In this document: piece after piece, positions 32,254 to 50,481 of the stretch
How positions within the stretch are numbered: position 1 is the first letter of the stretch
Layout of the letters: each line of letters starts with the position of its first letter
From: Natronorubrum thiooxidans
Lineage (GTDB): Archaea; Halobacteriota; Halobacteria; Halobacteriales; Natrialbaceae
Reading direction: 5' to 3'
Assembly (NCBI RefSeq): GCF_900156475.1
Contig: NZ_FTNR01000016.1
Coordinates: 1-64,000, forward strand
Length of the DNA: 64,000 nt
The notes under the pieces: model-generated
Seen by the model: only the letters and a program-made list of their open reading frames with translations
Databases searched by the model: none
What the model was told of the DNA's origin: nothing
Made by a program: the position numbers and the translations under genes

Positions 32254-35200
32254 TTACTCGTCTTCGGCGAAGAGCCCCTCGAGTTGGGCGAGTTGTTCGC
32301 CCTGATCAGTGAGACTGATTCCGAAATAGCACCGGGGACGACCGCGTCCTTCGATAGTCACTTTTCGCTTGGGGTGATCATTGTTGAGAGCCGACTTCAG
32401 TCGGGTCGAAAACCCACCCGGAGGATAGGTTTTGACCTCCGCTTCGTCAGCGCTCTTCTCAGGATCTTGACGTAGATCTTCGAGGGTGATTTGCGCCCAC
32501 GCATTGTAGGCATCGCGGATGTCTGAGACAGGGGTGACAGAACTCCGATCTCTATCCGCACTGATCTCGTCATCGATCTCCACGAACACGGTCAAGAATT
32601 GTTCCATCGGCTCCGGCCATTCATCTCCCGTCCGGTAGTAGTTACCGAACCGTTCGAGTGCGTCCTCACGGATGGCCTCATCGGGGTCCACATCGGGGGC
32701 CTCTGCCGGGCCATCACCGTGGCCGGTCTGGTCCTCTCTGGACCCACTATTATCGAGACGCGCTGGGGTGTATCCAGTCTCTTCTTCGATATCTTTGAGA
32801 ACTGGGAAGTAGACGTCATCGGGGAGTTTGAGATTGCGCTTGAGCGCCTTCTCGTCCGACCCCGATCCGTCGCCATCTTCGCCCTCATCTGGACCCTCCG
32901 CAGCATCGAACTGCTCGAGGTCAGCTGGGTCACAGAAGTCGTGCTTGATCGCGTAGCCGACCAGCCCCTTGAGGGGGATCGGCGTGTGCTCTGGAACCAG
33001 TCCATTTTGGCGGGCGTACTTCCACAGCAGGAAGTACTCATAATCCTCAAGAGTCTGACCTTTCGCCGACGTGGACCCATCGCGGTGACCCATGTCGCAG
33101 AGTGCGAAGTGTTGGAAATTGTATACTGCTTCGCGCTTGTGACAGTAGGCGAAATCGTCGTCGATCACGACGAAATAGTTCTCCGATTCACCGAAGTGAC
33201 CGAACGGATTCTTCCCTCGAGAGCCGGGGTTCAGTCCGAGGTCGCGGAGCTCGAGACTCCAGATCGGATTGTGTTTGCCGGTGAGTTTCTTGTAGTCGGC
33301 TTCCTCGACACGATCTTCGATTTCCTGTGGGTCGACGTCGATCGCTGAATCGCTGTCGGAGTTGACGAGCCCACTGACATTGCCCGAGGCTGCGGGATGC
33401 TGTGTGGGGTGGATCGTCGGGATGACACCGAACAGCGAGAGCGGTGGGTAGACGTCAGGCGACTCCGGGGCCGGCGTGAGTGCGTTGTTGTCCTGACGGA
33501 GGTCGGCAGCGTCAGCAACAGGATGTCTGTGAGCGGCCTGCAGTTCGTCGCTGTCGGCTTCGGGGTCGGAGTTGATGACATACGGGGACTTCACTGGGAA
33601 GTCGTCGCCTGCCGCTGCGTAGGGCAGCGAACCGACTGTGTGCAGGAGGTCGTTGGCCACCGGGTAGGTTAGCGAGTTGGTTTCCATCCCGGTCGGGTAG
33701 TCTGCGACGGGATCTGCCCGCTGGGTGAGAGCCTGCATCCACGCAGGGGCCGTGGTGTGTCCGTCACGCCGTTCTTCGACCGACGGACTGTCTTCCATCG
33801 ACAGTCGGAGTGCCCAGTCTGCAGGTGGCGCGAGTGCCAGCCAGCCGTTCTGCAGATAGTCGTCGAGGTCGCGTTTCTCGTCCCCGAACTGTGGGAGTTC
33901 GATCAGCCAGACGTTCGTCCCGCCGTAGTCGAAGCGGTCGGGTTCCTCGAGAGAAGCTTGGTCGGCGTCGTCCTTAGTCGTCGCCTCTCCATCAGTCTCG
34001 GTATCGACTTCGATGACATCCAGCCGGCGGGCCACTTCTTCCCAGAGGTCGTAGTCGTCTTCTTCGGGGTCGGCATCGCCTTCGATGACTTCCTCGCGAT
34101 AGACGTCGGCTGCGGCTTGCACTGTTCCCGTGAACGTCTCGTCCGGTGACGGCGTATGCGTATCCAGTACGCGACCCATGTCGACGGCGCTGTCGACACC
34201 GGGGCCATGGTTGTAGATTTCGATGACTTCGCTGATCGGGCCGGTATCTCGTGGGCGGTCGGCGTCGGTCGTCAGGAGATGGACCGGCACTTCATCGGCC
34301 GTGACCTGCGTTTCCTCGTCGGCGTCTTTCTCCGGATCAGCTGGTGGAGCGACACAGATGTCGTGGTCCTCGAGCATCTCCTCGAGGAGGTCGTTCGCGG
34401 CGGCACTCACTGCAGTCTTCGCGGTGAACTCCGACGGGCCGGGGAACTCCCCAGTACAGAACAGTTCCCGGATGTTCATCGCCCGCCGGCAGGCTCGTTC
34501 GTCGTGGTCCCGATCGTCTTCATCGAGGACGACGCGCTTCGGTGGGTCGCTGTCCTGCAGGAAGTAGACGTCGGGGATCTGGTGACTCCGAATGATATCG
34601 GCCAGCGTCTCGCGCTGTTTGATTTTGAACGTCTTCGTCACGGGCGAGATACACGGAATCCCGTGGGCGTGGGCCGTGATCGCGTCGGCCATCCCTTCCG
34701 TGATGACGAGCGGTTCGCCGTCGCGGATGGTTTCGCGGCCGTAGATCGGTTCGTCGACGATGGTGTAGTTCTTGGTCGTGGCGAGCTTGGCGTACTTGCC
34801 CTTCGTGAAGTCCTCGGGATGGATTCCATGCTCGGTGTCGAAGTCGGGTTGACGGCCGATGAAGAACGCGACCTGTCCGTCTTCGTCGTGGTAGGGGAAG
34901 ATGTAACGTCCACGAAACAGGCACGAGAGGTCCTTCGGCTCATCGACTTGCGTGTAGTCGACGTAACCCTCGCCGTCGCTGTTCTCTCCGTAGGCGTCTC
35001 GAGGCTTCGTGAACAGCCCCGTCGCGATCATCGTATGATGAGCGAAGCCCGCTTCCTCGAGATGATAGAATAGTTCCTTCCCGAAGACGGGTGCCCAGCC
35101 GAGTTGTTTCTGGTCGACGATCGAGTCACTCCAGCCACGATGGTCAGCGCCGAGATACTGGTAGGGCTTCCCGTCGATCATGAAGTCGTTCGGACTGGCG

Positions 35201-38200
35201 ACTTTTGTTTCGGCGTCGTCGACTGACTGAATGCCCGTCGGTTGCTCGTCGCGATGGGCGGGCATCGCGTCAGCTGCCTCGGGATCTCGCTCGACTGGGT
35301 ACGCTGGGTCGTCTCCCTCGAGGGAAGTGAAGTACTCCCGTGGCGTCTCGGGCTTGCGGTAGCCCTCTTCGAACGCTCGCTCTTGGTTCCACTCGACGTT
35401 GTGTTCGATTTCCCGATCCAGCTGGTCGTGGAAGAACAGGGCGGCTTCCTCGAGACAGGCTTGGACAGCGCCGAGGTCTGGTTTGGGTTTCAGTCGAAGC
35501 TCCTCAAGATCGGTGTCGATGAGCGCGCTGTTGGGCTCGGCACGCGGCTCGCCGTCTGCGGTCTGGTCTGCACCACTCGTTTCACTGGACTCGCTCTGCG
35601 TGGCGCTGTCGGCCGCAGAATCGCTTCCGGTTTCGTCGGACGTCGTCTCGTCGTCCGACGACTCGAACATCTGCTGGTCGGTGATCGTTTCTTCCGACTC
35701 AGTTTCGGAACTCGAGTCTTGGTTTTCCGATTCGTTGTACGTCTCTGAGTTGGTCGCTGTGCGACTTTCGGCTTCAGATGTGGTCTCGGTCGTGTCGGTA
35801 TTGGTCGGCTGCTCTCCGGGCGTGCTGTCCGACTCCTGTTGGCCCTCGTCGTGAGTCGGTTCGTCCGAGGGCGTCGTGTCGGCCGTCGACGTCGATTCCG
35901 TGGCTGGTTCGTCTCCACCACTCTCGGTTTGCTCGGTGGTTTCTTTGTCAGTAGTCTCTGTGGTTGACTGGCCAGTATTCTCGTTAGTTGACTCGGGAGA
36001 TTCCTCAGTACCAGCGTCGGGACTCGAGCCAGAGCCGTCGTCATCATCTCCGTCGTCGCTGTTGTCTGCGTTCCCTGCGTCGTCGCTTGGTGGGTAGGCA
36101 TCTGGATCGAACGCTTCCTCAGCGATCTCCGGGCCACGATCGTCTCGAGGCGTGTTGATGTAGTAGTGGTCTTCGGTATAGACGATCCCATGTTCACGGC
36201 CACGCTCGAGAGTTGCGTGTGCCTGATCTTCTGAGAGGTCGTGGACGAAAGTCAGACCGAGGATACACTCCTGTTCGGTGAACGAATCGTGAGGGGATCG
36301 GTTGTATTCATCGAGGAGCGCGCTCCAGAAGGTAGGGACAGTGCGGTCACCGAGTGCGAGCTGCTTTCCGTCTTCGATGATGACACCTGCATCAACACCA
36401 GCTCCGATTGCAGCCTTGGCGTCTACTCGCTCGAGGTCGTGAGTGGCGCGCAAACCCATGATGACACCCGGAATATCGATCCCATTTTCGGGACTGTGGC
36501 CGAGTGCATTCCAGACAGCAGTCCAGTTATCTCGCCGTTGCATCTTCGTGATCTGCTCATCCTCGAGGTGCTCACGGTAGGCGTCACGCGGGCCGGGGAG
36601 TCGAACGGCGTCTTCTTCTTCCCCAGCGGGGACGAGTTCGCCTGAGGCGAGGCCGAGTTGAACTGCGTCGGAAACTTGCGTCCGACGAGTGCCGGCGTGT
36701 TGGACGGCGCCGGGCAGTCGCTCGCGATAGATCGGCTTCGTCTCGTCGACGCTTGCTGCCTCCCAGACTCGAGTCCAGAACGTCCGGGTTGTCGGTTTCT
36801 TACTCCCGAAGCGATCAGCGACAGCCTCGTCGTCGATTTCGATATCTTCGGGATCGGTACTTCCGCCTGTGTCGTTTGCGATGTAGTTGTCGTTCAGATC
36901 GTCCATAGCTGCATATTGGTCGAACTCGATCTCTGCGATTCGCTCGGCGCCACTCTCGTCACTCGTATCTCCATCCTCGTCACCGAGAATGTCGATCGTT
37001 CCCTCGTCGTCCGTGTCTTCGACTTCAAAGCCATCGTCGGAGATTTCTGCATCGACCTCGACGTCTTCGACTTCGGTTTCGGCCGTGGCTTCTCCATCAC
37101 TGTCGTCTGCCGTCTCGTCGCTGTCTTCGTTGAGTCCGACGGGGTCGGCGTCGTTGCCCTCCACTGCGAGTGCGGTCAACCCACGGTAGTCGTCCAGATG
37201 TTCGTCGGGGAAGAGTGACTCAAAGGCCTCGGGCGGTGCCTCGTGAACCTGATTGCTATGCGAAACCGATCGTTTTCCGCTGGTGTCCTCTGCTCGGCTG
37301 GGCATTTCCTCGGGCACGAGCGCTTCAGGGATTGGAACAGCCTCTCGAGTGAATCCGGCCCTTTCTGCATCGCTTTCGTTCCCTCCCTCGGCTGGTTGTT
37401 TCTCTTGCTCTTGGTCGAGGACTGCATCTTCAGGAACCTCGGCGATGTTGCTGATTTCCTCAGTAGAGTCTGAATCAGTCGAGGACTCGTCCGACTCTTC
37501 AGCACTGTCAGCCCCACCAGCAGGAGACAGGAAGTCAGGAAGAGGAGTTTGGACGATGTCCCATGCCTCTTCACCCGGAACATCTTGGAACTCTCGCTCG
37601 GGGACGAACGGTTCGTAGACGAGTTGCCAATCTTCTTTGAGGTCACCCAGCGTATCGTATCGCTGTTTCCGGCCTCCGGGGTAGACGACCCATTCATTGT
37701 TGTGAGTGTCGAGCCGACACCACGCCTCAAAGGCATTCGTCGAACCAAAGCGCTCATCGATGCGGAGTTTCCCTTGTTCCTCCGCATCGCTCATCCCATT
37801 ATAGAGCGTCAGTTCGTTGTCGTCGGTTTTCGTCCAGACTGCCTGCTCTCCTCGTTCGATGACTGCGTGCTTTCGCTCGCCGTCAGTGGGTGTCCCCAAC
37901 TGGAGATAGTCTGTCTTGTTGTAGTAGAGCTCCATTGGCGTCCGGTTCTGGAGATCGTCGACTTCCTCAGGGTCTTCGTTCGGACGCATCCGAATATGAC
38001 CTCGAGTGAACATCGGATCTGTGAGGATATGGTTCACCCGAGCAGCTGGTTCTGCACTCTCATCGGACTCCGCTGCAGGGGTGATGAACATAGTCTTCCG
38101 GTCGTTTCGAACAGACCGGGCGAGGTTTTGGAGTGTGCGGGCCGGTTTCTTGTATGTGGCAGTCTCGGCTTCTATCGTGACTGCACCACCGTTAGAGAGT

Positions 38201-41200
38201 TCTGCCGCGATAGGATACTCCTTCTCGAATCGATCCAGCACTTTCGACGCTCGTTTCGCTTTGATTTTGCTCTCAATTGGTGGGAAGGCGATTGCGTCAG
38301 GTAGGCTTTCTTCGTGCTCCTGACGGACGATGGTGACTTCCATCCCGATCGCAGAGAACACGACGAACGCACGTCGCAGAACCTCGTTGTGTTTCTCCGT
38401 CTCGGGCCGCCAGTCTTCGTCGGCTTGCTCAAGGACAGCCCGGATGCCCTTGTCGGTGATCGTGAGTTCGGTGTCCGTATCCGCAATCCGAATCTCGCCG
38501 ACCGGCGTTCCACCAGTCCCACGGAGTGAGTCGTCGTCATCGTCGTCTTCTGTCTCGATGAGTTCGACGTACTCCTCGTCGATCAGGACGCCATCGGGGA
38601 GCTCTTCGAACGCAGTCCCTGTTCGCGTCTTGAATCCGTCCACGATCTCCTCGACGGTGACCGTGAGCATGCCGCCGTCCGAGACTGTCTCGCCTTCGCC
38701 ACCACCGCTCGGTGCGTCGATATTGAACGGCGGGGATGGATCCAGCACGTCGTACTCTGCCTCGAGTGTATCGAGGGCGTTCTGTCGGATCTGCTCGGCC
38801 CACAGCGCCTCGAGGAAACTCTTCGTGATATCGGCTTCGCCGCCGAGATGGGAGAGTGCGTGTTCGGACTCGTCGAGGTCCTGCTCGAGTGGATCGACAC
38901 CGTACTCTGCAAGGCTCTCGGCGATGATCGACTCGGCGTCGGCTTTCGTCCGCCGTGGGGGGTAGTCTGCGAACGTGTTGGGGGCCAGTGGGTCCGACCG
39001 CATTGGCCCGTCTTCGTCCATCACCGAGATCGACGTCAGTGCCGTAAACGCCGGCAACGACATGAACGTACTCGAGTCGATATTCTCGTCATCGAAGCGT
39101 TCGGCGATGATCTTGGCGTCATCAACCTCGGTGACACCGAAGCTGATCAGCGTGTCCGAGTTCCCGAACATCTGCTTGAGCGTCTGCGGGGCGAAGTCCC
39201 GCACCTGCGAAGGGTTCTGCAGGCAGGTGATGACACCCATCTTCCCGGAGCGGGCCTTCGAGAGCATCTTGTCCAAGGCCATGTTCTCCGAGGCGATGTC
39301 GTCGAACTCGTCCATGATCGCGAAGAACGGTTCGCGCTCGGCTTCGGGCATCTTCTCGCGTTTTCGGATGGTCGACCAGACACGACGCATGATCCCCGTC
39401 GAGACGACTTTCCGAATCTCGTCGGAGCGGATCGTGTTCCGGACGAGGATGATCTTCCCTTCTTCGACGGCGTCGGAGATGTTGATCGTCCCGTCACGGT
39501 GGGCGACGATTCCCCGGGAGATGGGGTCTTCGACCCAGTCCTGAATCCGGCGCAGGATCGGGTCGATTTCCTCGTCGTCCATCTGCGCGATTTTCGTGGT
39601 GTACTCGTGGATGAACGTCATCCCCTCTTGGCTGACGACGTTCGAGAACTTCGCCCGACTCTCGCTTTCGGCCAGCACGTAGTACATGTCCACAAGCGTG
39701 AACTTACGCCGCGAGCGGATCATCGCCCGGGCGATGTTACACGTGATCCCCTCCATCTTCGGCCCCCAGTACTCGCCGCCACGCAGGACTGCCCGGAGGT
39801 CGTCGATGATCGACTCGACTTCTCGGTTGAACTCCTTTTCCGTCTCGCAGTTGCCCGGCTCAAGGAAGTTGATACCGGCGACCTGCTCGAAGGTTTCGCT
39901 GCCGGGTTCGACCCAGATGATATCGTCCATCCGGTCGTCGGGCAGCTGTGTTATCAGATCATCGACAGTGTCTCCTTTTGGATCAATGAAGACGTAGCCG
40001 TGTCCCTTCCGGGCGATTTGGTTCATGATATTATTCAGAGTTGTGGATTTCCCTTTCCCCGTCGAACCGAAGACGGTGGCGTGACGGAACCACGAGAACG
40101 GCTCGAGGCCGATTTCTCGGATGCCGTCCATCGGATTGGAATCGTAGCCAAGCCAGATGGGTTCGTCGGGGTTGTCCTTATGCGAATGCATGAGGCGGTC
40201 CCGAACGTCGAAGCCGGCGAACACGTCGCCCTCTTCGGCGTACTCTGTCCCGCTGGCGAACGATTTGAGCTCGAACGGGAAGTACTGCTGAAGCCCCGGC
40301 TCACGACGGAACTGCACGTCACTATCAGCCTGATCGTAGACGTAGTGAGCGTGGTGGGCCGAGTTGTCCATCCCGCGACGATCGGTTGTTGGTAGACCCG
40401 CTTCGGATTTCTCTGGGAGGGAGTCTGGCTGCTGGACCGTCTCGGGTAGGCCCGATGTCGTCTCGACGTCGTCGGGGACAGTATTCTCTTGGTCGGGGTC
40501 TTGGCCTCGAGTGTCGGTCGTTTCCCCAGTGTCTGTTTCGTCTGACTGCGTGGCCGGTTCCTCCGTCTGTTCCGGTTTCTTCTCGGGTGTGTTCCGAGCG
40601 CCGGGTTGATCGAAGATCGAACCGTCCTCAAGGTCCTCAAGGTCGATCCCCATTTCGTCGGCGCGGCGCTCGCGGAACTTCCGGAGGAGGTTGTCGGCTA
40701 CGTGTTCGTTATACCGGGCTTTGATTTTCTCACGGGTGAGTTGGCCGTTGATGAACTGGCGATAGACGTCGTTGAACGCCTCCTGTTTCTCGGGCGTGTC
40801 GACAGTGATGACGTTTTGTGCGCTGTCCGCGCCACCAGTGTCTGAATCATCGGTTTTGTCGTCGAAGAGGAACCGGGCGAGGACTTCTGCCCCTTTCCAG
40901 AGTAGTGAATCGCTTTCGGACGTGTCGCTCGAGACAGTATCTGATTCTTCCGCCGAGTCGCTTGAGAGCGAACTCATCGCGAGGGCATCGCCGCTGACAC
41001 TGGAAGTGTCCCGCTGGTACGCCATATCTGGTGGCTTGACCGTCCGCTTGGCTTGTGCTGGAGGGCGATTACCGGCACCTTTCCGAGTCCAGTCGACGTT
41101 TGTCGATTCGACGCCGTCGCCGGGAAGGTGAGCAGCCGCAGCGAGTTCTTCGACCGTGAGTGCGGTCTGATCGTAGTGGAACTCGCGGCCTGCTGCGCGG

Positions 41201-42162
41201 CGGGCTTCCTCGAGAAGGCCATCGCCATGGTAAGCCAGCGGCGTGAACGTCTGGTCGATCTCGTTGTTGTGGTAGATCGACGAGAAGATCGACCCGATAC
41301 CGTGGGCGTGATGTTTGGCGATGTCTGCGGAAGAGGCAAAGACGAGGTACCGAATGTTGACGTAGAACGCCTGTTTCCCCTCCTGATTGAGGACGGCGTC
41401 TGCTGCTCGCAGGTCCTTTGAGGAGGGGTCGTCTAAGCGAGGACTCCAGTAGCTGCCTCTGACTCGACCATAGGTGAGACTATCGTTGATCTGGTCGGCG
41501 CTAAACTCGTGGAGTTTGTGTCCTTCAGTCCACTTGTCACTCGCGGGTGTGAATACGAACTGGACGATAGCGACTTCATCACTGTAGCCGACGAGTTCGC
41601 TCAGAATACTCTGATAAGGATCACTCTCGAATTGGTCGAGGCCATTCGTTCCTTTGATCGGGCGGTACTTTTCGCTGTGAAGCTCGAGTTTGCCGCCAGA
41701 GACATGCATCCCCGGTTCGATCTCGGGGAATTTGTTCTTGACGGGTTTGATCTCGGAGTTGGGGTAGAGTCCGGAGACCTGCTGGCGGAACTCCCGCTGC
41801 TCAATCGTATCGGGGAGGCCCCAGTGAAACTCAACAGTTTCGTCATTGAGGACGAGTTCGAAGGCGAACTTCTTGGGTTCCTCCGCGAGGTTGAATTTCT
41901 GAGCGAGCCGCGAGTGAGATGCGTTTTCGTTGTGGAGGCTGGCGATGAGTTCTTGGGCGTACTCGAGGCCGTCCTCGTTTTTGTGCGGACGAATGCGGTT
42001 GAGATAGCCTTGGTACGACTCACCTGCTTCCTGTAGTTGGTCGGCCTGTTCTTCTGAGAGTGCTACTGTGTCGTACGGACGTGACCCGAGTTGGTCATGT
42101 CGAATGTATTTGAGCCAGTCGGGCAGTGCATGATCGTCAATACGTCCTAATGGATCAGGCAT
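32254..42162 (-). CDS. Giant conjugation-type ATPase / TOPRIM primase fusion
   Basis: One uninterrupted frame of 3302 residues (start at MPDPLGRIDD; a start 12 codons upstream is possible). Residues 1-420 precede a Ser/Asp-rich linker. An FtsK/VirB4/VirD4-like ATPase follows: Walker A VFGSTGKGKSTTLNN near 700, YVFIDPKGDTVDDLI, Walker B FFAIMDEFDD near 949, and VITCLQNPSQVRDFAPQT. Long acidic linkers and winged-helix-like units (about 1800-2010) come next, then a Ser/Thr/Glu linker (about 2025-2200). The C-terminal third is a DnaG-type region with TOPRIM motifs LVITEGMADAITAHAHG near 2490 and FLQDSDPP near 2540, and a final winged helix (about 3210-3302). Likely pumps and primes transferred DNA. 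Confidence 0.85.
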   Translation of the reverse strand: MPDPLGRIDDHALPDWLKYIRHDQLGSRPYDTVALSEEQADQLQEAGESYQGYLNRIRPHKNEDGLEYAQELIASLHNENASHSRLAQKFNLAEEPKKFAFELVLNDETVEFHWGLPDTIEQREFRQQVSGLYPNSEIKPVKNKFPEIEPGMHVSGGKLELHSEKYRPIKGTNGLDQFESDPYQSILSELVGYSDEVAIVQFVFTPASDKWTEGHKLHEFSADQINDSLTYGRVRGSYWSPRLDDPSSKDLRAADAVLNQEGKQAFYVNIRYLVFASSADIAKHHAHGIGSIFSSIYHNNEIDQTFTPLAYHGDGLLEEARRAAGREFHYDQTALTVEELAAAAHLPGDGVESTNVDWTRKGAGNRPPAQAKRTVKPPDMAYQRDTSSVSGDALAMSSLSSDSAEESDTVSSDTSESDSLLWKGAEVLARFLFDDKTDDSDTGGADSAQNVITVDTPEKQEAFNDVYRQFINGQLTREKIKARYNEHVADNLLRKFRERRADEMGIDLEDLEDGSIFDQPGARNTPEKKPEQTEEPATQSDETDTGETTDTRGQDPDQENTVPDDVETTSGLPETVQQPDSLPEKSEAGLPTTDRRGMDNSAHHAHYVYDQADSDVQFRREPGLQQYFPFELKSFASGTEYAEEGDVFAGFDVRDRLMHSHKDNPDEPIWLGYDSNPMDGIREIGLEPFSWFRHATVFGSTGKGKSTTLNNIMNQIARKGHGYVFIDPKGDTVDDLITQLPDDRMDDIIWVEPGSETFEQVAGINFLEPGNCETEKEFNREVESIIDDLRAVLRGGEYWGPKMEGITCNIARAMIRSRRKFTLVDMYYVLAESESRAKFSNVVSQEGMTFIHEYTTKIAQMDDEEIDPILRRIQDWVEDPISRGIVAHRDGTINISDAVEEGKIILVRNTIRSDEIRKVVSTGIMRRVWSTIRKREKMPEAEREPFFAIMDEFDDIASENMALDKMLSKARSGKMGVITCLQNPSQVRDFAPQTLKQMFGNSDTLISFGVTEVDDAKIIAERFDDENIDSSTFMSLPAFTALTSISVMDEDGPMRSDPLAPNTFADYPPRRTKADAESIIAESLAEYGVDPLEQDLDESEHALSHLGGEADITKSFLEALWAEQIRQNALDTLEAEYDVLDPSPPFNIDAPSGGGEGETVSDGGMLTVTVEEIVDGFKTRTGTAFEELPDGVLIDEEYVELIETEDDDDDDSLRGTGGTPVGEIRIADTDTELTITDKGIRAVLEQADEDWRPETEKHNEVLRRAFVVFSAIGMEVTIVRQEHEESLPDAIAFPPIESKIKAKRASKVLDRFEKEYPIAAELSNGGAVTIEAETATYKKPARTLQNLARSVRNDRKTMFITPAAESDESAEPAARVNHILTDPMFTRGHIRMRPNEDPEEVDDLQNRTPMELYYNKTDYLQLGTPTDGERKHAVIERGEQAVWTKTDDNELTLYNGMSDAEEQGKLRIDERFGSTNAFEAWCRLDTHNNEWVVYPGGRKQRYDTLGDLKEDWQLVYEPFVPEREFQDVPGEEAWDIVQTPLPDFLSPAGGADSAEESDESSTDSDSTEEISNIAEVPEDAVLDQEQEKQPAEGGNESDAERAGFTREAVPIPEALVPEEMPSRAEDTSGKRSVSHSNQVHEAPPEAFESLFPDEHLDDYRGLTALAVEGNDADPVGLNEDSDETADDSDGEATAETEVEDVEVDAEISDDGFEVEDTDDEGTIDILGDEDGDTSDESGAERIAEIEFDQYAAMDDLNDNYIANDTGGSTDPEDIEIDDEAVADRFGSKKPTTRTFWTRVWEAASVDETKPIYRERLPGAVQHAGTRRTQVSDAVQLGLASGELVPAGEEEDAVRLPGPRDAYREHLEDEQITKMQRRDNWTAVWNALGHSPENGIDIPGVIMGLRATHDLERVDAKAAIGAGVDAGVIIEDGKQLALGDRTVPTFWSALLDEYNRSPHDSFTEQECILGLTFVHDLSEDQAHATLERGREHGIVYTEDHYYINTPRDDRGPEIAEEAFDPDAYPPSDDAGNADNSDDGDDDDGSGSSPDAGTEESPESTNENTGQSTTETTDKETTEQTESGGDEPATESTSTADTTPSDEPTHDEGQQESDSTPGEQPTNTDTTETTSEAESRTATNSETYNESENQDSSSETESEETITDQQMFESSDDETTSDETGSDSAADSATQSESSETSGADQTADGEPRAEPNSALIDTDLEELRLKPKPDLGAVQACLEEAALFFHDQLDREIEHNVEWNQERAFEEGYRKPETPREYFTSLEGDDPAYPVERDPEAADAMPAHRDEQPTGIQSVDDAETKVASPNDFMIDGKPYQYLGADHRGWSDSIVDQKQLGWAPVFGKELFYHLEEAGFAHHTMIATGLFTKPRDAYGENSDGEGYVDYTQVDEPKDLSCLFRGRYIFPYHDEDGQVAFFIGRQPDFDTEHGIHPEDFTKGKYAKLATTKNYTIVDEPIYGRETIRDGEPLVITEGMADAITAHAHGIPCISPVTKTFKIKQRETLADIIRSHQIPDVYFLQDSDPPKRVVLDEDDRDHDERACRRAMNIRELFCTGEFPGPSEFTAKTAVSAAANDLLEEMLEDHDICVAPPADPEKDADEETQVTADEVPVHLLTTDADRPRDTGPISEVIEIYNHGPGVDSAVDMGRVLDTHTPSPDETFTGTVQAAADVYREEVIEGDADPEEDDYDLWEEVARRLDVIEVDTETDGEATTKDDADQASLEEPDRFDYGGTNVWLIELPQFGDEKRDLDDYLQNGWLALAPPADWALRLSMEDSPSVEERRDGHTTAPAWMQALTQRADPVADYPTGMETNSLTYPVANDLLHTVGSLPYAAAGDDFPVKSPYVINSDPEADSDELQAAHRHPVADAADLRQDNNALTPAPESPDVYPPLSLFGVIPTIHPTQHPAASGNVSGLVNSDSDSAIDVDPQEIEDRVEEADYKKLTGKHNPIWSLELRDLGLNPGSRGKNPFGHFGESENYFVVIDDDFAYCHKREAVYNFQHFALCDMGHRDGSTSAKGQTLEDYEYFLLWKYARQNGLVPEHTPIPLKGLVGYAIKHDFCDPADLEQFDAAEGPDEGEDGDGSGSDEKALKRNLKLPDDVYFPVLKDIEEETGYTPARLDNSGSREDQTGHGDGPAEAPDVDPDEAIREDALERFGNYYRTGDEWPEPMEQFLTVFVEIDDEISADRDRSSVTPVSDIRDAYNAWAQITLEDLRQDPEKSADEAEVKTYPPGGFSTRLKSALNNDHPKRKVTIEGRGRPRCYFGISLTDQGEQLAQLEGLFAEDE

Positions 42163-42713
42163 GGTTGAAATAACACTGGTCCGTCTACTGAGATACAATC
42201 ATATACTTCGCCAATGAAATTGGTTTTTTGCGATTTCTAACCTCTAATTTTTCGGACGTGGTATTTTCTTCTTTCATAGTTTGTGGATATAGATTCCTCT
42301 ATTCGGACGTTTTTGCACAACTGGAGTGTCAACTTCTCGACTAGCGTGAACTATGTTCGTTCATCCAGAAACGACACTTGGTTCGGTTCTGGAAATTAGG
42401 GGCTCGATAGAGTTATGTTATTCACTTATCGGGGTTCGATTTTGATCACATACAGAGGCAGTTACCCCTCCGTTATAATTCTTTGTGAGTGGGGGGTGTG
42501 AAGCGAAATGCTTTGTAGGATCGCTAGACAGCACCGCCTCAATCGTATTATCTTTGTAGAAAGCTGGTCTGATTGAACTGGAAGCCACTCTGCCAATTGC
42601 ACCTTCACGGCAGACCGATCGAGACGGGTTGCAGTCTGTCCCAGGGAACGGTGAGCAACGAGCCGAAGACGTACTCGAACGAGTTCAGTGAGAAGTGGAG
42701 GTCGTAGTACTCG
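42163..42713. other. Upstream region of the giant gene, no gene seen
   Basis: AT-rich near 42170-42300, consistent with a promoter for the minus-strand giant gene. I see no repeats or frames of note. The 3' half is bounded by the small gene ending at 42714. Confidence 0.4.
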
Positions 42714-45043: not shown

Positions 45044-45199
45044 TTCGATCTATATTCATTTGTAGACGCTCTATATCCCGAAAACGTGGTAGTTTGTGAT
45101 AGCGACGGCGAGGCGAAAGCACAGGACAAGAAGACGCTCCGTGAGGCAGGGTTATCACGCTATGGGGCGGATCCGTGTCACTTTATTCTCGCCTATTAA
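45044..45199 (+). pseudogene. Short orphan coding fragment
   Basis: After a TAA the plus strand is open for 51 codons with good codon bias: FVDALYPENVVVCDSDGEAK, AQDKKTLREAGLSRYGADPC, HFILAY. It has no start codon and overlaps by 17 bp the 3' end of the convergent membrane-protein gene. Origin unknown. Confidence 0.35.
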
Positions 45200-46082
45200 G
45201 GTATTCTTCGAGATTATTGATTATTTCTTCGTCATCAAACCGGAGATCGTTTCGGTCGAATCGAATACTCGGTAAAAGACCTGATCGATGTAATATTACA
45301 TCGTTCTCTGATACTGTAAAGTATTTTATCTGTGACTTTGGTATAAATTGATGCCAGGTTAACAATTTTCCACTTCCACTCCGACGCTGCTCTAACCCAA
45401 CCGGAGTAAGCTTATACGCTCTATCAGACAGCAGTGTGTTTGTTGTACCAACAAGTGTGACGACAACGAGAGCAGTTAACACAGTCAGATATGGAGGATA
45501 CCAAAATGAAAGTAGCCCAACTAGGACCAATCCAGTGACCATGGTGAATATCTGCACCTTTATTTTGTGACCCCGCGGCCACCTGGAAGTCCATTCTATT
45601 AGGACATTCTCGGATGCGATAGCGGAAGACGCAACCCGATTACGGGCCGCTCGTATGGCGATCTCACCTGCCCCAGCTGCGACAATCCCGAGTAGGAACC
45701 CGGTCGCACCGACGAGACTTGACACGGGGATGGCAGCCGGGTCGATGAGATAGACAGCGACCACCTCGAGGACACTAAAATGGTAAGCCATCATTGGAAC
45801 GAGTCCGAGAAGCGGGAAGAGCCAGGCTACCCAACCTGAGTTCAGCCAAGAGGCTATTTGTCCGTTGTCGGTTGTTAGGAATGCCGTCCCGGAACCAATA
45901 GTAATACCGATCGTTCCTAGAACGGCGAATGCAAGCACTTTGCTGCGCAAGCCCAAATACTCCACAGTGAACAAAGTAAGCGTCGGCGCAATCAGCGCGG
46001 CTACGTAGCTGCCGACGAGCACGCCGAATCGAGGACCCAATCCATCCGGTGAAACTACCGAGCTTTCGGTATTATATTTCAT
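45183..46082 (-). CDS. Multi-pass membrane protein, possible halocin immunity or export partner
   Basis: 299 residues. Hydrophobic segments near 18-42, 50-68, 85-110, 122-145 and two in 180-225 give about six membrane helices. The C-terminal 75 residues are soluble and beta-rich (LTPVGLEQRRSGSGKLLTWH, FTVSENDVILHRSG), ending in a charged helix (DDEEIINNLEEYLNRRE). This PH-like tail resembles DUF-type membrane proteins with a C-terminal sensor domain. It lies downstream of, and in the same direction as, the Tat-signal peptide gene at 47216. The immunity or export role rests on neighbourhood only. Confidence 0.6.
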   Translation of the reverse strand: MKYNTESSVVSPDGLGPRFGVLVGSYVAALIAPTLTLFTVEYLGLRSKVLAFAVLGTIGITIGSGTAFLTTDNGQIASWLNSGWVAWLFPLLGLVPMMAYHFSVLEVVAVYLIDPAAIPVSSLVGATGFLLGIVAAGAGEIAIRAARNRVASSAIASENVLIEWTSRWPRGHKIKVQIFTMVTGLVLVGLLSFWYPPYLTVLTALVVVTLVGTTNTLLSDRAYKLTPVGLEQRRSGSGKLLTWHQFIPKSQIKYFTVSENDVILHRSGLLPSIRFDRNDLRFDDEEIINNLEEYLNRRE

Positions 46083-46142
46083 ATTTGATTTTGATGTGGA
46101 GCGTATAAAGTATTTAGGTACGCTGAAGACTGAGTGTTGAGC

Positions 46143-46432
46143 TCAGCGTGAAGGAGGGAGTTGAAGCGGTTTCTGACGAGTGCTGTTACTGAAGACTTGC
46201 CGGCCCAAGGTCGCGGGCTGACCGTCAGCCCGTGACCGGAGCGTACGCGTCGGGACGCCGATACGTTCGTCTCGATCTTCCACCGCCACGCTACCTCTGC
46301 TTCTACTTCGTGGCGAATCCAGCCACAGAACGTCTGGAATGTGAACTGTTCGAGTAGGTCGCGCCCACCCTTTCGCGGTCGGATGACGGCTGTAAACAGA
46401 TGCTGAACACATCCAGACGCAGACCTTCTCAT
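46143..46432 (-). pseudogene. Possible transposase remnant
   Basis: The minus strand has a stretch with coding character (LLEQFTFQTFCGWIRHEVEA, and later NRFNSLLHAELNTQS) but an abnormal Arg/Ser-rich middle. A 13-bp hairpin with one wobble (GGTCGCGGGCTGA / TCAGCCCGTGACC) lies in it, as in the other hairpin-bearing transposase genes here. No family can be named with confidence. Confidence 0.25.
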
Positions 46433-46484
46433 GACAACTCGTCAATACGATTCAGCTGATTACGTCGGTTGGGAAGTACCAATC

Positions 46485-47216
46485 TTAGCAGTCACAATGC
46501 TGTGAAGATACGACATCTGAATCAGTCCCAATTTTAATGCCACATCCTTCATTAGTCAAACCGATATAGGCCGCAGTCACCGTCGCGAGGACGGCCGCCG
46601 CTGCCATCACAACCGGCGCCAATGCAGTTGCTCCAAAATAGGCGGCGATCGCAGTAGCGATAGTGAAGGTGCCGGCAGTTAATACGCTTCCCCACTGAAT
46701 CTCATCGACAGCGTCGTCACCAAGATAGGCCACGTCGCCGTTAATCTCTGATTTCCCATTACAGTGGCTTTGGATCCGCACCTCACCTTGCCGATTGTTG
46801 TCACTCTTGAAAAATTCACTACGCCCTTTTTCGGTTAGATCAATGTCAAGTTCGCCAGCACTCTCTTTTATTTTCCAGTATCCTTTTTCTACACCCTTAT
46901 TCATTTGTTTAACAATTTTTTGGACAGTGAATGTGAGCGATTTCCCGTTAGCAGAGATCTCGACTTTTTCCTTCCCAGATGTCCGACGTTTCGCCTTTTC
47001 CTTCCCGAGTGCGTTTGCCTGACCTTTCACTTTTGCCTTACCGTTGGCGACCGTGATTGAATCTGTGAGCTTTTCGAACTTATTAGACTTCTGATTGCCA
47101 ATCGCTTTCTTGTCCTTTGCCGCAGCGGCGGAGCCAGCCATAAGACTGCCACCAATAAGACCGCTAGCTGATTTAAGAACACTACGCCTATTCACATCAT
47201 TATAGACTTCTTTCAT
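46485..47216 (-). CDS. Tat-exported putative halocin-like precursor
   Basis: 243 residues. Tat signal: NRRSVLKSASGLIGGSLMAG then SAAAA. After it comes a long Lys-rich, Ala/Gly-poor pro-region (about 35-165). The C-terminal 75 residues are very hydrophobic and small-residue-rich (VLTAGTFTIATAIAAYFGAT, ALAPVVMAAAAVLATVTAAY) and end with a cysteine tail (NEGCGIKIG, SSQHCDC). This order (Tat signal, pro-region, hydrophobic Cys-containing C-terminal peptide) is that of halocin C8 precursors, though I see no sequence identity. Start 47216 is chosen from the TATA position; 12 bases upstream is another ATG (47228). Confidence 0.6.
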   Translation of the reverse strand: MKEVYNDVNRRSVLKSASGLIGGSLMAGSAAAAKDKKAIGNQKSNKFEKLTDSITVANGKAKVKGQANALGKEKAKRRTSGKEKVEISANGKSLTFTVQKIVKQMNKGVEKGYWKIKESAGELDIDLTEKGRSEFFKSDNNRQGEVRIQSHCNGKSEINGDVAYLGDDAVDEIQWGSVLTAGTFTIATAIAAYFGATALAPVVMAAAAVLATVTAAYIGLTNEGCGIKIGTDSDVVSSQHCDC

Positions 47217-47243
47217 TAATACACTCATATTTTATCCTTACTA

Positions 47244-47251
47244 ATTATAAA
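47244..47251 (-). promoter_or_regulatory. TATA box of the halocin-like gene
   Basis: The minus strand carries TTTATAAT centred about 31 bp upstream of ATG 47216. Haloarchaeal TATA boxes lie about 27 bp before the transcript start, which would give an almost leaderless message from ATG 47216. Confidence 0.55.
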
Positions 47252-47310
47252 TCTTCCCCATATCCTATTAGATTATATTATAGAAAGACTCCGATAGGAG
47301 GCCGCAGGGT

Positions 47311-48312
47311 TTGGAAACCGTATCCAGCAGTACCAACACCCTGCAAGACGTAGCTTCGGTAGACGACTTCTTGGATGCGGCGGCTACCGAGACAGTACCG
47401 CTGTTTGATCATCTTGCGTTCGAGTTTCTGTTGGAGTACGACGTGTTCGCCCCCGCTCGCCGGGGGCGAACACGAGTGCATTAGCCACCAGATCTCTTTC
47501 GTGGCTTTCTGCACTGCTACTACGGGGATGTCTACGGTACGCGCCCAGTTACACGAGAACTTCAGAACGGTCTTGTCTGGTATTACTGCGGACTCGACAA
47601 ACCGCCATCTAGAGACACGATTGATCGATTTTTCACCGACCTCGAACACATTGTTGACGATGTCTTCGACAGGCTCATCGAGCAGGCCGCTGTCCGCGGC
47701 CTGCTCGACTTAACATACTCTATCGATTCAACCCACGTCAAGGCGATCCAGTACAACGACGCTGCATCGTGGAACTACGACCCAACAGCCGAGGAGTACT
47801 ACTACGGCTTCGGTTGTACAATCGTCTCAACCGGTTCAAAGATCCCAATTGCAGCGGAATTCACCCAATCCAAGCAAGCATCTCAAGAGACGGCGAGCGC
47901 GTCACGCGTGACGCGCATCGCCGTCGGTACGCCGGACTGGATGCTCGGAGACAACGCCTACGACGTCCTTGATTGGCACGACCACCTGCTGGCCGCAGGG
48001 GTCGTGCCAATCGCTCCGTACAATCCACGAAACACTGACGACCCGAAAGACATCGGGTACAGGGTCGAAAATCGCATCGAGGAACATAACGAGGATGTTC
48101 AGCTGAAGCAATCTATCTTGAACGAGACGTACAACAACCGGACAGGCGTCGAACGAACCAACGACGCGGTCAAGGACTGCTGCCTCGGGCATGTCCGCGC
48201 CCGAGGCCGGGTTCACGCACGAACAGAAGTATTTGTTGCGCTCTGTCTACGACTCGGCGTTGCCATCACCAACTACGAGCGAGGAAACGATCCGGGCTGT
48301 GAGATATTATGA
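47311..48312 (+). pseudogene. DDE transposase with one in-frame amber codon
   Basis: 333 codons from TTG 47311 read in a single frame except for TAG at 47482-47484. Family members I recall have Gln (CAG) there (VHQPP), so one C-to-T change explains it. The protein has TYSIDSTHVKAIQYN (first Asp), WMLGDNAYDVLDWHDH (second Asp) and TGVERTNDAVKDC (Glu) in DDE order. Five stems lie in the coding region: 47442-47474 (14 bp), 47679-47707 (12 bp), 47889-47925 (18 bp, imperfect), 47971-48012 (13 bp), 48182-48207 (9 bp). The first stem lies 8 bp before the amber codon. Confidence 0.8.
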
Positions 48313-48334
48313 GATGGACCTATGAAAATCCTGC

Positions 48335-49809: not shown

Positions 49810-50481
49810 TTATCCGTAGAACTGACCGAGGACGGAGAAGACCCACACAAGGACGTGCGCGCCGACGACTGGAACCAGCGTCCGGCGACTGAGATACACG
49901 AGCGTGAGAACGGCCGCGACCAGCGCGGTCTGAAGGAGGTTCCCGAGGGGCCAGTTGAGCGCGTGCGCGGCGGTGAATACGCCCCACGTGATCCCGCCCG
50001 CAACGAGCGAACTGTCCGTATACGCGAGTAATCGCTCGATAGGGTAGCCCCGGTAGAGGATCTCCTCAACGACACCCGTCGTCACAGCTCGCGCAAGCGC
50101 CACACCTATCCCGACGCTCGCACCCGCTGCGCTCGCTTCCTTGACCGAGAAGCCCAACGCCGTAACGAGCGGGTCCGTCATAGTATAGATGAGCAGAATC
50201 ACCACGGAAGTCCCAACAATATACCCGAGATCGATCCAGGCTGGCCGTCGAAATCCGAGGTCGGCTAGTGACAGTCCTTCACCGCGCAGGGCAATCCCGA
50301 CGACGATGCCAGCGAGTGCCCACTGGATACCGATCGAGACGACTGAGGGAATGTCGGCATCGAACACACCGAGTGCGAGCACGAACAGGGGTAATCCGAG
50401 GAAGGCGAGGGCGAGGTTACTGACGGTGAGTGCGGGGAGGCTGGACAGGGCGGACACAGACCGTCGGACGTTCTCCACCAT
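49810..50481 (-). CDS. CPBP-family (CAAX-type) intramembrane protease
   Basis: 223 residues, about six membrane helices. Signature: VVEEILYRGYPIERLL near 140 (EExxxR), FTAAHALNWPLG near 170 (catalytic His), and PVVGAHVLVWVFSVLG near 205 (second His). In bacteria such proteins occur in bacteriocin immunity and peptide maturation, and in archaea their targets are unknown. It is 2.5 kb from the halocin-like gene with transposons between, so a link is only speculative. A single gene between an IS1111-type element and the integrase. Confidence 0.88.
   Translation of the reverse strand: MVENVRRSVSALSSLPALTVSNLALAFLGLPLFVLALGVFDADIPSVVSIGIQWALAGIVVGIALRGEGLSLADLGFRRPAWIDLGYIVGTSVVILLIYTMTDPLVTALGFSVKEASAAGASVGIGVALARAVTTGVVEEILYRGYPIERLLAYTDSSLVAGGITWGVFTAAHALNWPLGNLLQTALVAAVLTLVYLSRRTLVPVVGAHVLVWVFSVLGQFYG

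Follow-up and report, generated by a model that had tools for sequence, protein, structure and literature searches.

A candidate mobile halocin-type cassette encoding a Tat-secreted precursor and a membrane protein in Natronorubrum thiooxidans

The analyzed DNA of 64,000 nucleotides from Natronorubrum thiooxidans (hereafter, the window) contains a gene for a Tat-secreted precursor with a hydrophobic C-terminus and a neighboring gene for a membrane protein (Table 1). The two genes probably constitute a mobile cassette of the halocin type, i.e., an archaeal bacteriocin, with a probability of about 0.68. The cassette would encode a membrane-active peptide secreted via Tat, together with a membrane protein giving cognate immunity. 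The killing, the processing, and the immunity are all predicted functions. The earlier note had proposed a possible halocin locus here. Given the Tat precursor, the hydrophobic peptide, and the membrane neighbor, a halocin-type locus is still the best-supported reading, and its antimicrobial role is a prediction. A wider generalization is tentative, at somewhat under even odds: a widespread and hitherto undescribed superfamily of archaeal bacteriocins would share a hydrophobic hairpin closed by a disulfide, its single toxin fold being combined with at least 11 unrelated immunity families and spreading by way of transposon-like cassettes.

Table 1. Features of the candidate cassette in the window.
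Feature	Position	Strand	Basis or remark
Remnant of transposase gene 3' end, left cassette edge	45089..45160	-	boundary 45089 common to four other genomes; right limit approximate
Proposed immunity protein, a six-TM membrane protein whose C-terminal region is soluble	45183..46082	-	adjacency in divergent loci; kept when precursor is broken
Tat-secreted halocin-like precursor gene	46485..47216	-	ORF and homologues; 243 aa from ATG 47216, 247 aa from ATG 47228
C-terminal halocin-like domain, residues 151-247	46488..46778	-	family-wide conservation and covarying Cys pair
N-terminal domain/propeptide, about residues 41-150	46779..47108	-	common to homologues; conserved less than C-terminal domain
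Twin-arginine signal peptide region, NRRSVLK ... MAGSAAAA	47109..47216	-	sequence; RR retained in aligned full-length homologues
Broken copy of related transposase, right cassette edge, outward-pointing	47375..48312	+	two ORF pieces; match to G024 stops at 48325

The precursor and its family

In the precursor, the signal sequence is NRRSVLKSASGLIGGSLMAGSAAAA. An N-terminal domain of ~110 residues precedes a C-terminal domain of ~95 residues, in which there are four Cys and two hydrophobic segments. The latter domain comprises, in this order, CNGKSEINGDVAYLGDD, two hydrophobic segments rich in Gly/Ala, the sequence NEGCGIKIG, and finally SSQHCDC. Residues 151-247 contain CNGK (Cys156), YLGDD, NEGCGIKI (Cys229), and SSQHCDC (Cys245 and Cys247). 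The earlier description of a Tat-signal precursor with a hydrophobic C-terminus and a Cys tail agrees with the sequence, in which both the GCGIKI box and SSQHCDC are present. The length of ~75 very hydrophobic residues given there was slightly generous; the part is indeed hydrophobic, but strongly so only at residues ~176-225. The internal ATG at 47216, which had already been taken as the start, is a better start than that at 47228, because the homologue L093 (88% identical) begins with a matching MKE.

Neither the precursor nor the six-TM protein scored above any cut-off in Pfam and NCBIfam. The profile search that the earlier note had suggested yielded no match to a structural family; such a match was what it had considered contrary to a halocin. 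The search of PHROGs with the window protein gave nothing at E ≤ 0.1. The PDB sequence search gave weak matches only, all outside the hydrophobic domain of the precursor. AlphaFold2 models of the precursor were unusable, with pLDDT of 37.9 from one sequence and 39.2 from four sequences; the two long helices between strands in the latter model carry no weight here.

Among 293 genomes of the order searched at the protein level, ten showed matches, weak to strong. Profiles of nine rows and then of 24 rows were run on 392 genomes, and the second one gave 37 at E ≤ 1e-5. Matches confined to the Tat/N-terminal region were excluded, as those at model positions 1-60 only are matches to the Tat signal. 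By a hand count of C-domain matches, the family has 38 loci in 30 of the 392 sampled genomes, ~8% of the genomes sampled in the order. When the last 115 residues of 36 members were each compared with all the others, 353 off-diagonal matches reached E ≤ 1e-6; with reversed or shuffled sequences there were none. Thus, the hydrophobic domain represents a genuine homologous family, not a common composition.

The features of the family that are present in the window protein are the Tat signal, the Cys box, the hydrophobic hairpin, the N-x-G-C-G-V/I box, and Q near the C-terminus. Within the family, the G-x-G inside the N-x-G-C-G-V/I box and the Gln near the C-terminus vary least. The hairpin is bracketed by two Cys, preceded by Cys156 and followed by Cys229; 22 members have both and five have neither, which are counts of members related by descent and not of independent events. 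Since the two Cys mostly occur together or are missing together, the simplest inference from the sequences is that a Cys156-Cys229 disulfide closes the hydrophobic hairpin. A small subgroup has G-E-G instead of G-C-G; in its members the first Cys is retained, and an additional one occurs at another place. The subgroup of the window protein has an additional C-x-C tail.

The distribution of the family is patchy. G184, a genome from the same family as the window genome, has six matching places, several of them broken, and resembles a graveyard of cassettes. No relatives were found in the scanned viral contigs. The scan of genome contigs with the subgroup of the window found nothing, and that with another subgroup found three named loci. 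The family is unnamed in Pfam, NCBIfam, and PHROGs, and was not found in the literature searched, a set of papers apart from the principal in silico survey of antimicrobials in archaea (Makarova et al. 2019, mBio). A Streptomyces plasmid protein with no evident signal peptide (L140:2330-2767, + strand) resembles the candidate G266 (27% identity over 55% of the query, E 5e-4). It is not claimed as a family member, as it is similar only to G266, the most divergent candidate; judging from this similarity, it is a possible distant bacterial counterpart.

The membrane partner

The next gene in the same direction had been described as encoding a multi-pass membrane protein, and this is correct: it encodes 299 aa with six predicted membrane segments, ~400 bp downstream of the precursor. 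Here and below, membrane segments were predicted by a simple hydropathy scan, and genes in the fetched loci were called heuristically. One distant homologue of this six-TM protein shows a weak match to the bacterial PH domain bPH_7 (E 0.0057).

Co-occurrence in other genomes, the other check that had been suggested, gave a positive answer: the membrane gene is conserved beside homologues of the precursor. It is downstream of the precursor in the window, in G024, G353, G344, and G006, and in a Natrinema versiforme plasmid. In G172, it is upstream on the same strand, reversing the gene order. The adjacency persists between pairs with a homologous partner at 32-46% identity. In two independent searches of 72,556 plasmid records, the sole homologue of the precursor and the sole homologue of the membrane protein were adjacent in one record. 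As this pair of genes recurs side by side in other genomes, its arrangement is not due to chance. Compared with the window copies, dN/dS is 0.27-0.37 for the partner and 0.49 for the precursor.

Across the whole family, a gene for a small protein of two or more membrane segments lies on the same strand ≤450 bp downstream of 19 of 32 precursors and of 17 of 134 control genes, the latter mostly from the same loci as the precursors (Fisher p 1.4e-7). On closer inspection, 26 of 36 precursors adjoin a multi-pass membrane protein, including hand-found neighbors, one of which is on the opposite strand and another upstream. The remaining 10 have no recognized membrane partner nearby. The partners form 11 groups, between which no similarity is detectable at E ≤ 1e-4. 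Two segments go with lengths of 60-69 aa, three or four with 118-137 aa, and six with 299-311 aa. One secreted family combined with many unrelated membrane partners has the look of toxin/immunity pairs, and on the sequence evidence it is hard to explain by an exporter or a structural partner.

The precursor is repeatedly decayed while the partner is kept. At least eight loci have a broken precursor and an open membrane gene, although some split frames in draft genomes could reflect sequencing errors. In G279, inserted DNA with transposase sequence splits the precursor, and the membrane protein, 94% identical, is open. In G214, just the last few codons of the precursor are left beside a 93% identical membrane gene. 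In G006, G014, G150, G184, G319, and G338 (two loci), the precursor is broken by stops, truncation, or split frames, and the partner is open in each. If the partner confers immunity, protection is expected to be retained after the loss of the weapon. Two related broken precursor loci, in G252 and G184, have no recognized partner.

These observations bear on two other explanations. The hairpin could be an anchor; the precursor would then be exported via Tat to serve in the envelope of its producer. The membrane gene would in that case encode a receptor or assembly partner for it, and an antimicrobial role would be lacking. Hydrophobic C-terminal segments could serve as membrane anchors, and the antimicrobial activity is predicted. 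This explanation is unlikely, as an envelope protein fits poorly with occurrence in 30 of 392 genomes at up to six places per genome, with 11 unrelated types of partners, and with repeated loss of the precursor beside a kept partner. In addition, the hydrophobic part is followed by a conserved, often Cys-bearing tail, not by a short cytoplasmic end.

It is rather doubtful that the precursor is a true halocin whose membrane neighbor exports, processes, or displays the peptide, self-protection being provided by the N-terminal domain as by HalI in halocin C8. Production of and immunity to halocin C8 were attributed to one gene in a 2005 paper, as cited in PMC12893001, and the 10 precursors with no recognized membrane neighbor would fit such an arrangement. 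However, the Tat signal already accounts for export, and the smallest partners, of 60-70 aa and two segments, are unlikely to be proteases or transporters. The persistence of partners beside broken precursors also argues against it.

For a halocin with a cognate immunity protein, the following process can be proposed. The precursor would be exported in the folded state via the Tat pathway, as its signal indicates. By analogy with HalC8 and HalH4, an extracellular protease would cut the ~95-residue C-terminal domain free of the N-terminal one. The released domain would be a hydrophobic hairpin of two segments, closed by the disulfide that the covariation of Cys156 and Cys229 suggests. It would insert into the membrane of related haloarchaea and de-energize or permeabilize it. 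The six-TM protein would remain in the membrane of the producer and block the peptide; its adjacency, the unrelated partners in sister loci, and its retention after precursor loss point to this role.

Distant relatives of the six-TM protein adjoin a RadB-like ATPase gene in many haloarchaea (L052-L059). They may be a housekeeping family from which the partner was recruited. They were dropped as a part of the system, since there is no precursor there. As related membrane proteins occur away from precursors, some of them beside this ATPase gene, the fold is not specific to immunity.

Comparison with known halocins and bacteriocins

The layout had been likened to halocin C8-type systems. As an analogy this holds: like halocin C8 precursors, the precursor has a Tat signal, a long N-terminal part, and a hydrophobic Cys-bearing peptide at the C-terminus. 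Membership in the C8 family does not hold. The NCBIfam model of halocin C8, TIGR04449, showed no match to nine family members even at E ≤ 10. It matched 19 of 101 family genomes and nothing in the window genome. The alignment by hhalign with the halocin C8 profile covered 14 Tat columns and nothing of the C-terminal domain. Precursors of the present family have 2-4 Cys in contrast to about 10 in halocin C8, and other conserved motifs; the invariant G-x-G and the conserved Q were not seen in C8. Descent of the precursor from halocin C8 by divergence and loss of most cysteines is thus quite improbable, even though the general plan is the same and small membrane genes also lie downstream of some C8-type precursors.

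Such C8-type loci are seen in related genomes (L126, L127, and L132), where the precursor is followed within ≤100 bp by a 125-aa 4-TM gene or a 59-aa 2-TM gene. These genes may encode extra immunity proteins for C8-type halocins. With 2- or 4-TM genes downstream of some C8-type precursors as well, such a layout may be common among the halocins of haloarchaea.

Halocin H4 of Haloferax mediterranei is also a secreted precursor. The halolysin HlyR4 cleaves HalH4 and releases an active C-terminal fragment, and HalC8 likewise acts as a C-terminal fragment (PMC12893001). Cleavage of the window precursor is proposed by analogy. Among class III bacteriocins, Geobacillin 26 and alicyclobacillin 24 are similarly secreted proteins of ~240 aa with a hydrophobic C-terminal helix and membrane-associated action (PMC13176240), but they are bacterial and have a Sec signal. 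The comparison by hhalign with Ali24, a proven member of the Geobacillin 26 family, showed no similarity (probability 0.5%, E 0.11). None of the circular bacteriocin models of Pfam and NCBIfam was among the matches at E ≤ 10. Overall, the precursor showed no homology to the proven halocins and bacteriocins with which it was compared.

Genes are known for very few halocins, and most antagonism among haloarchaea still lacks a molecular explanation. Haloferax mediterranei remains inhibitory after the deletion of halH4 (PMC12893001). If the proposed interpretation is true, the cognate and orphan membrane partners would provide dozens of candidate toxin/immunity pairs. It would also open a route to how membrane-active peptides act on ether-lipid membranes at high salt.

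Mobility of the cassette and its surroundings

The 3.24-kb region at 45089-48325 is 99.2% identical between the window and G024, a genome of another genus. Both edges of the cassette are pieces of related transposases facing outward. The G+C content of the precursor and membrane genes is 47-49%, versus 55% for the window. Judged by this identity, the cassette is a recent transfer between genera. Insertion sequences have scrambled the region, and an unrelated Tat protein and membrane gene could have become neighbors by chance, but this is hardly credible given the recurrence of the adjacency at 32-46% identity and in reversed gene order, and the association with membrane partners (p 1.4e-7).

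Two other genes in the window were observed. A gene for a CPBP (Rce1-like) intramembrane protease is at 49810-50481 (- strand), ~2.6 kb from the precursor and outside the shared 3.24-kb cassette. CPBP proteases are a class sometimes tied to bacteriocin self-protection. At 32254-42198 (- strand), a single open frame of 3314 aa joins a region like the TraD/TrwB coupling ATPases to one with weak similarity to DnaG primase, which suggests an unusual fused conjugation/replication protein.
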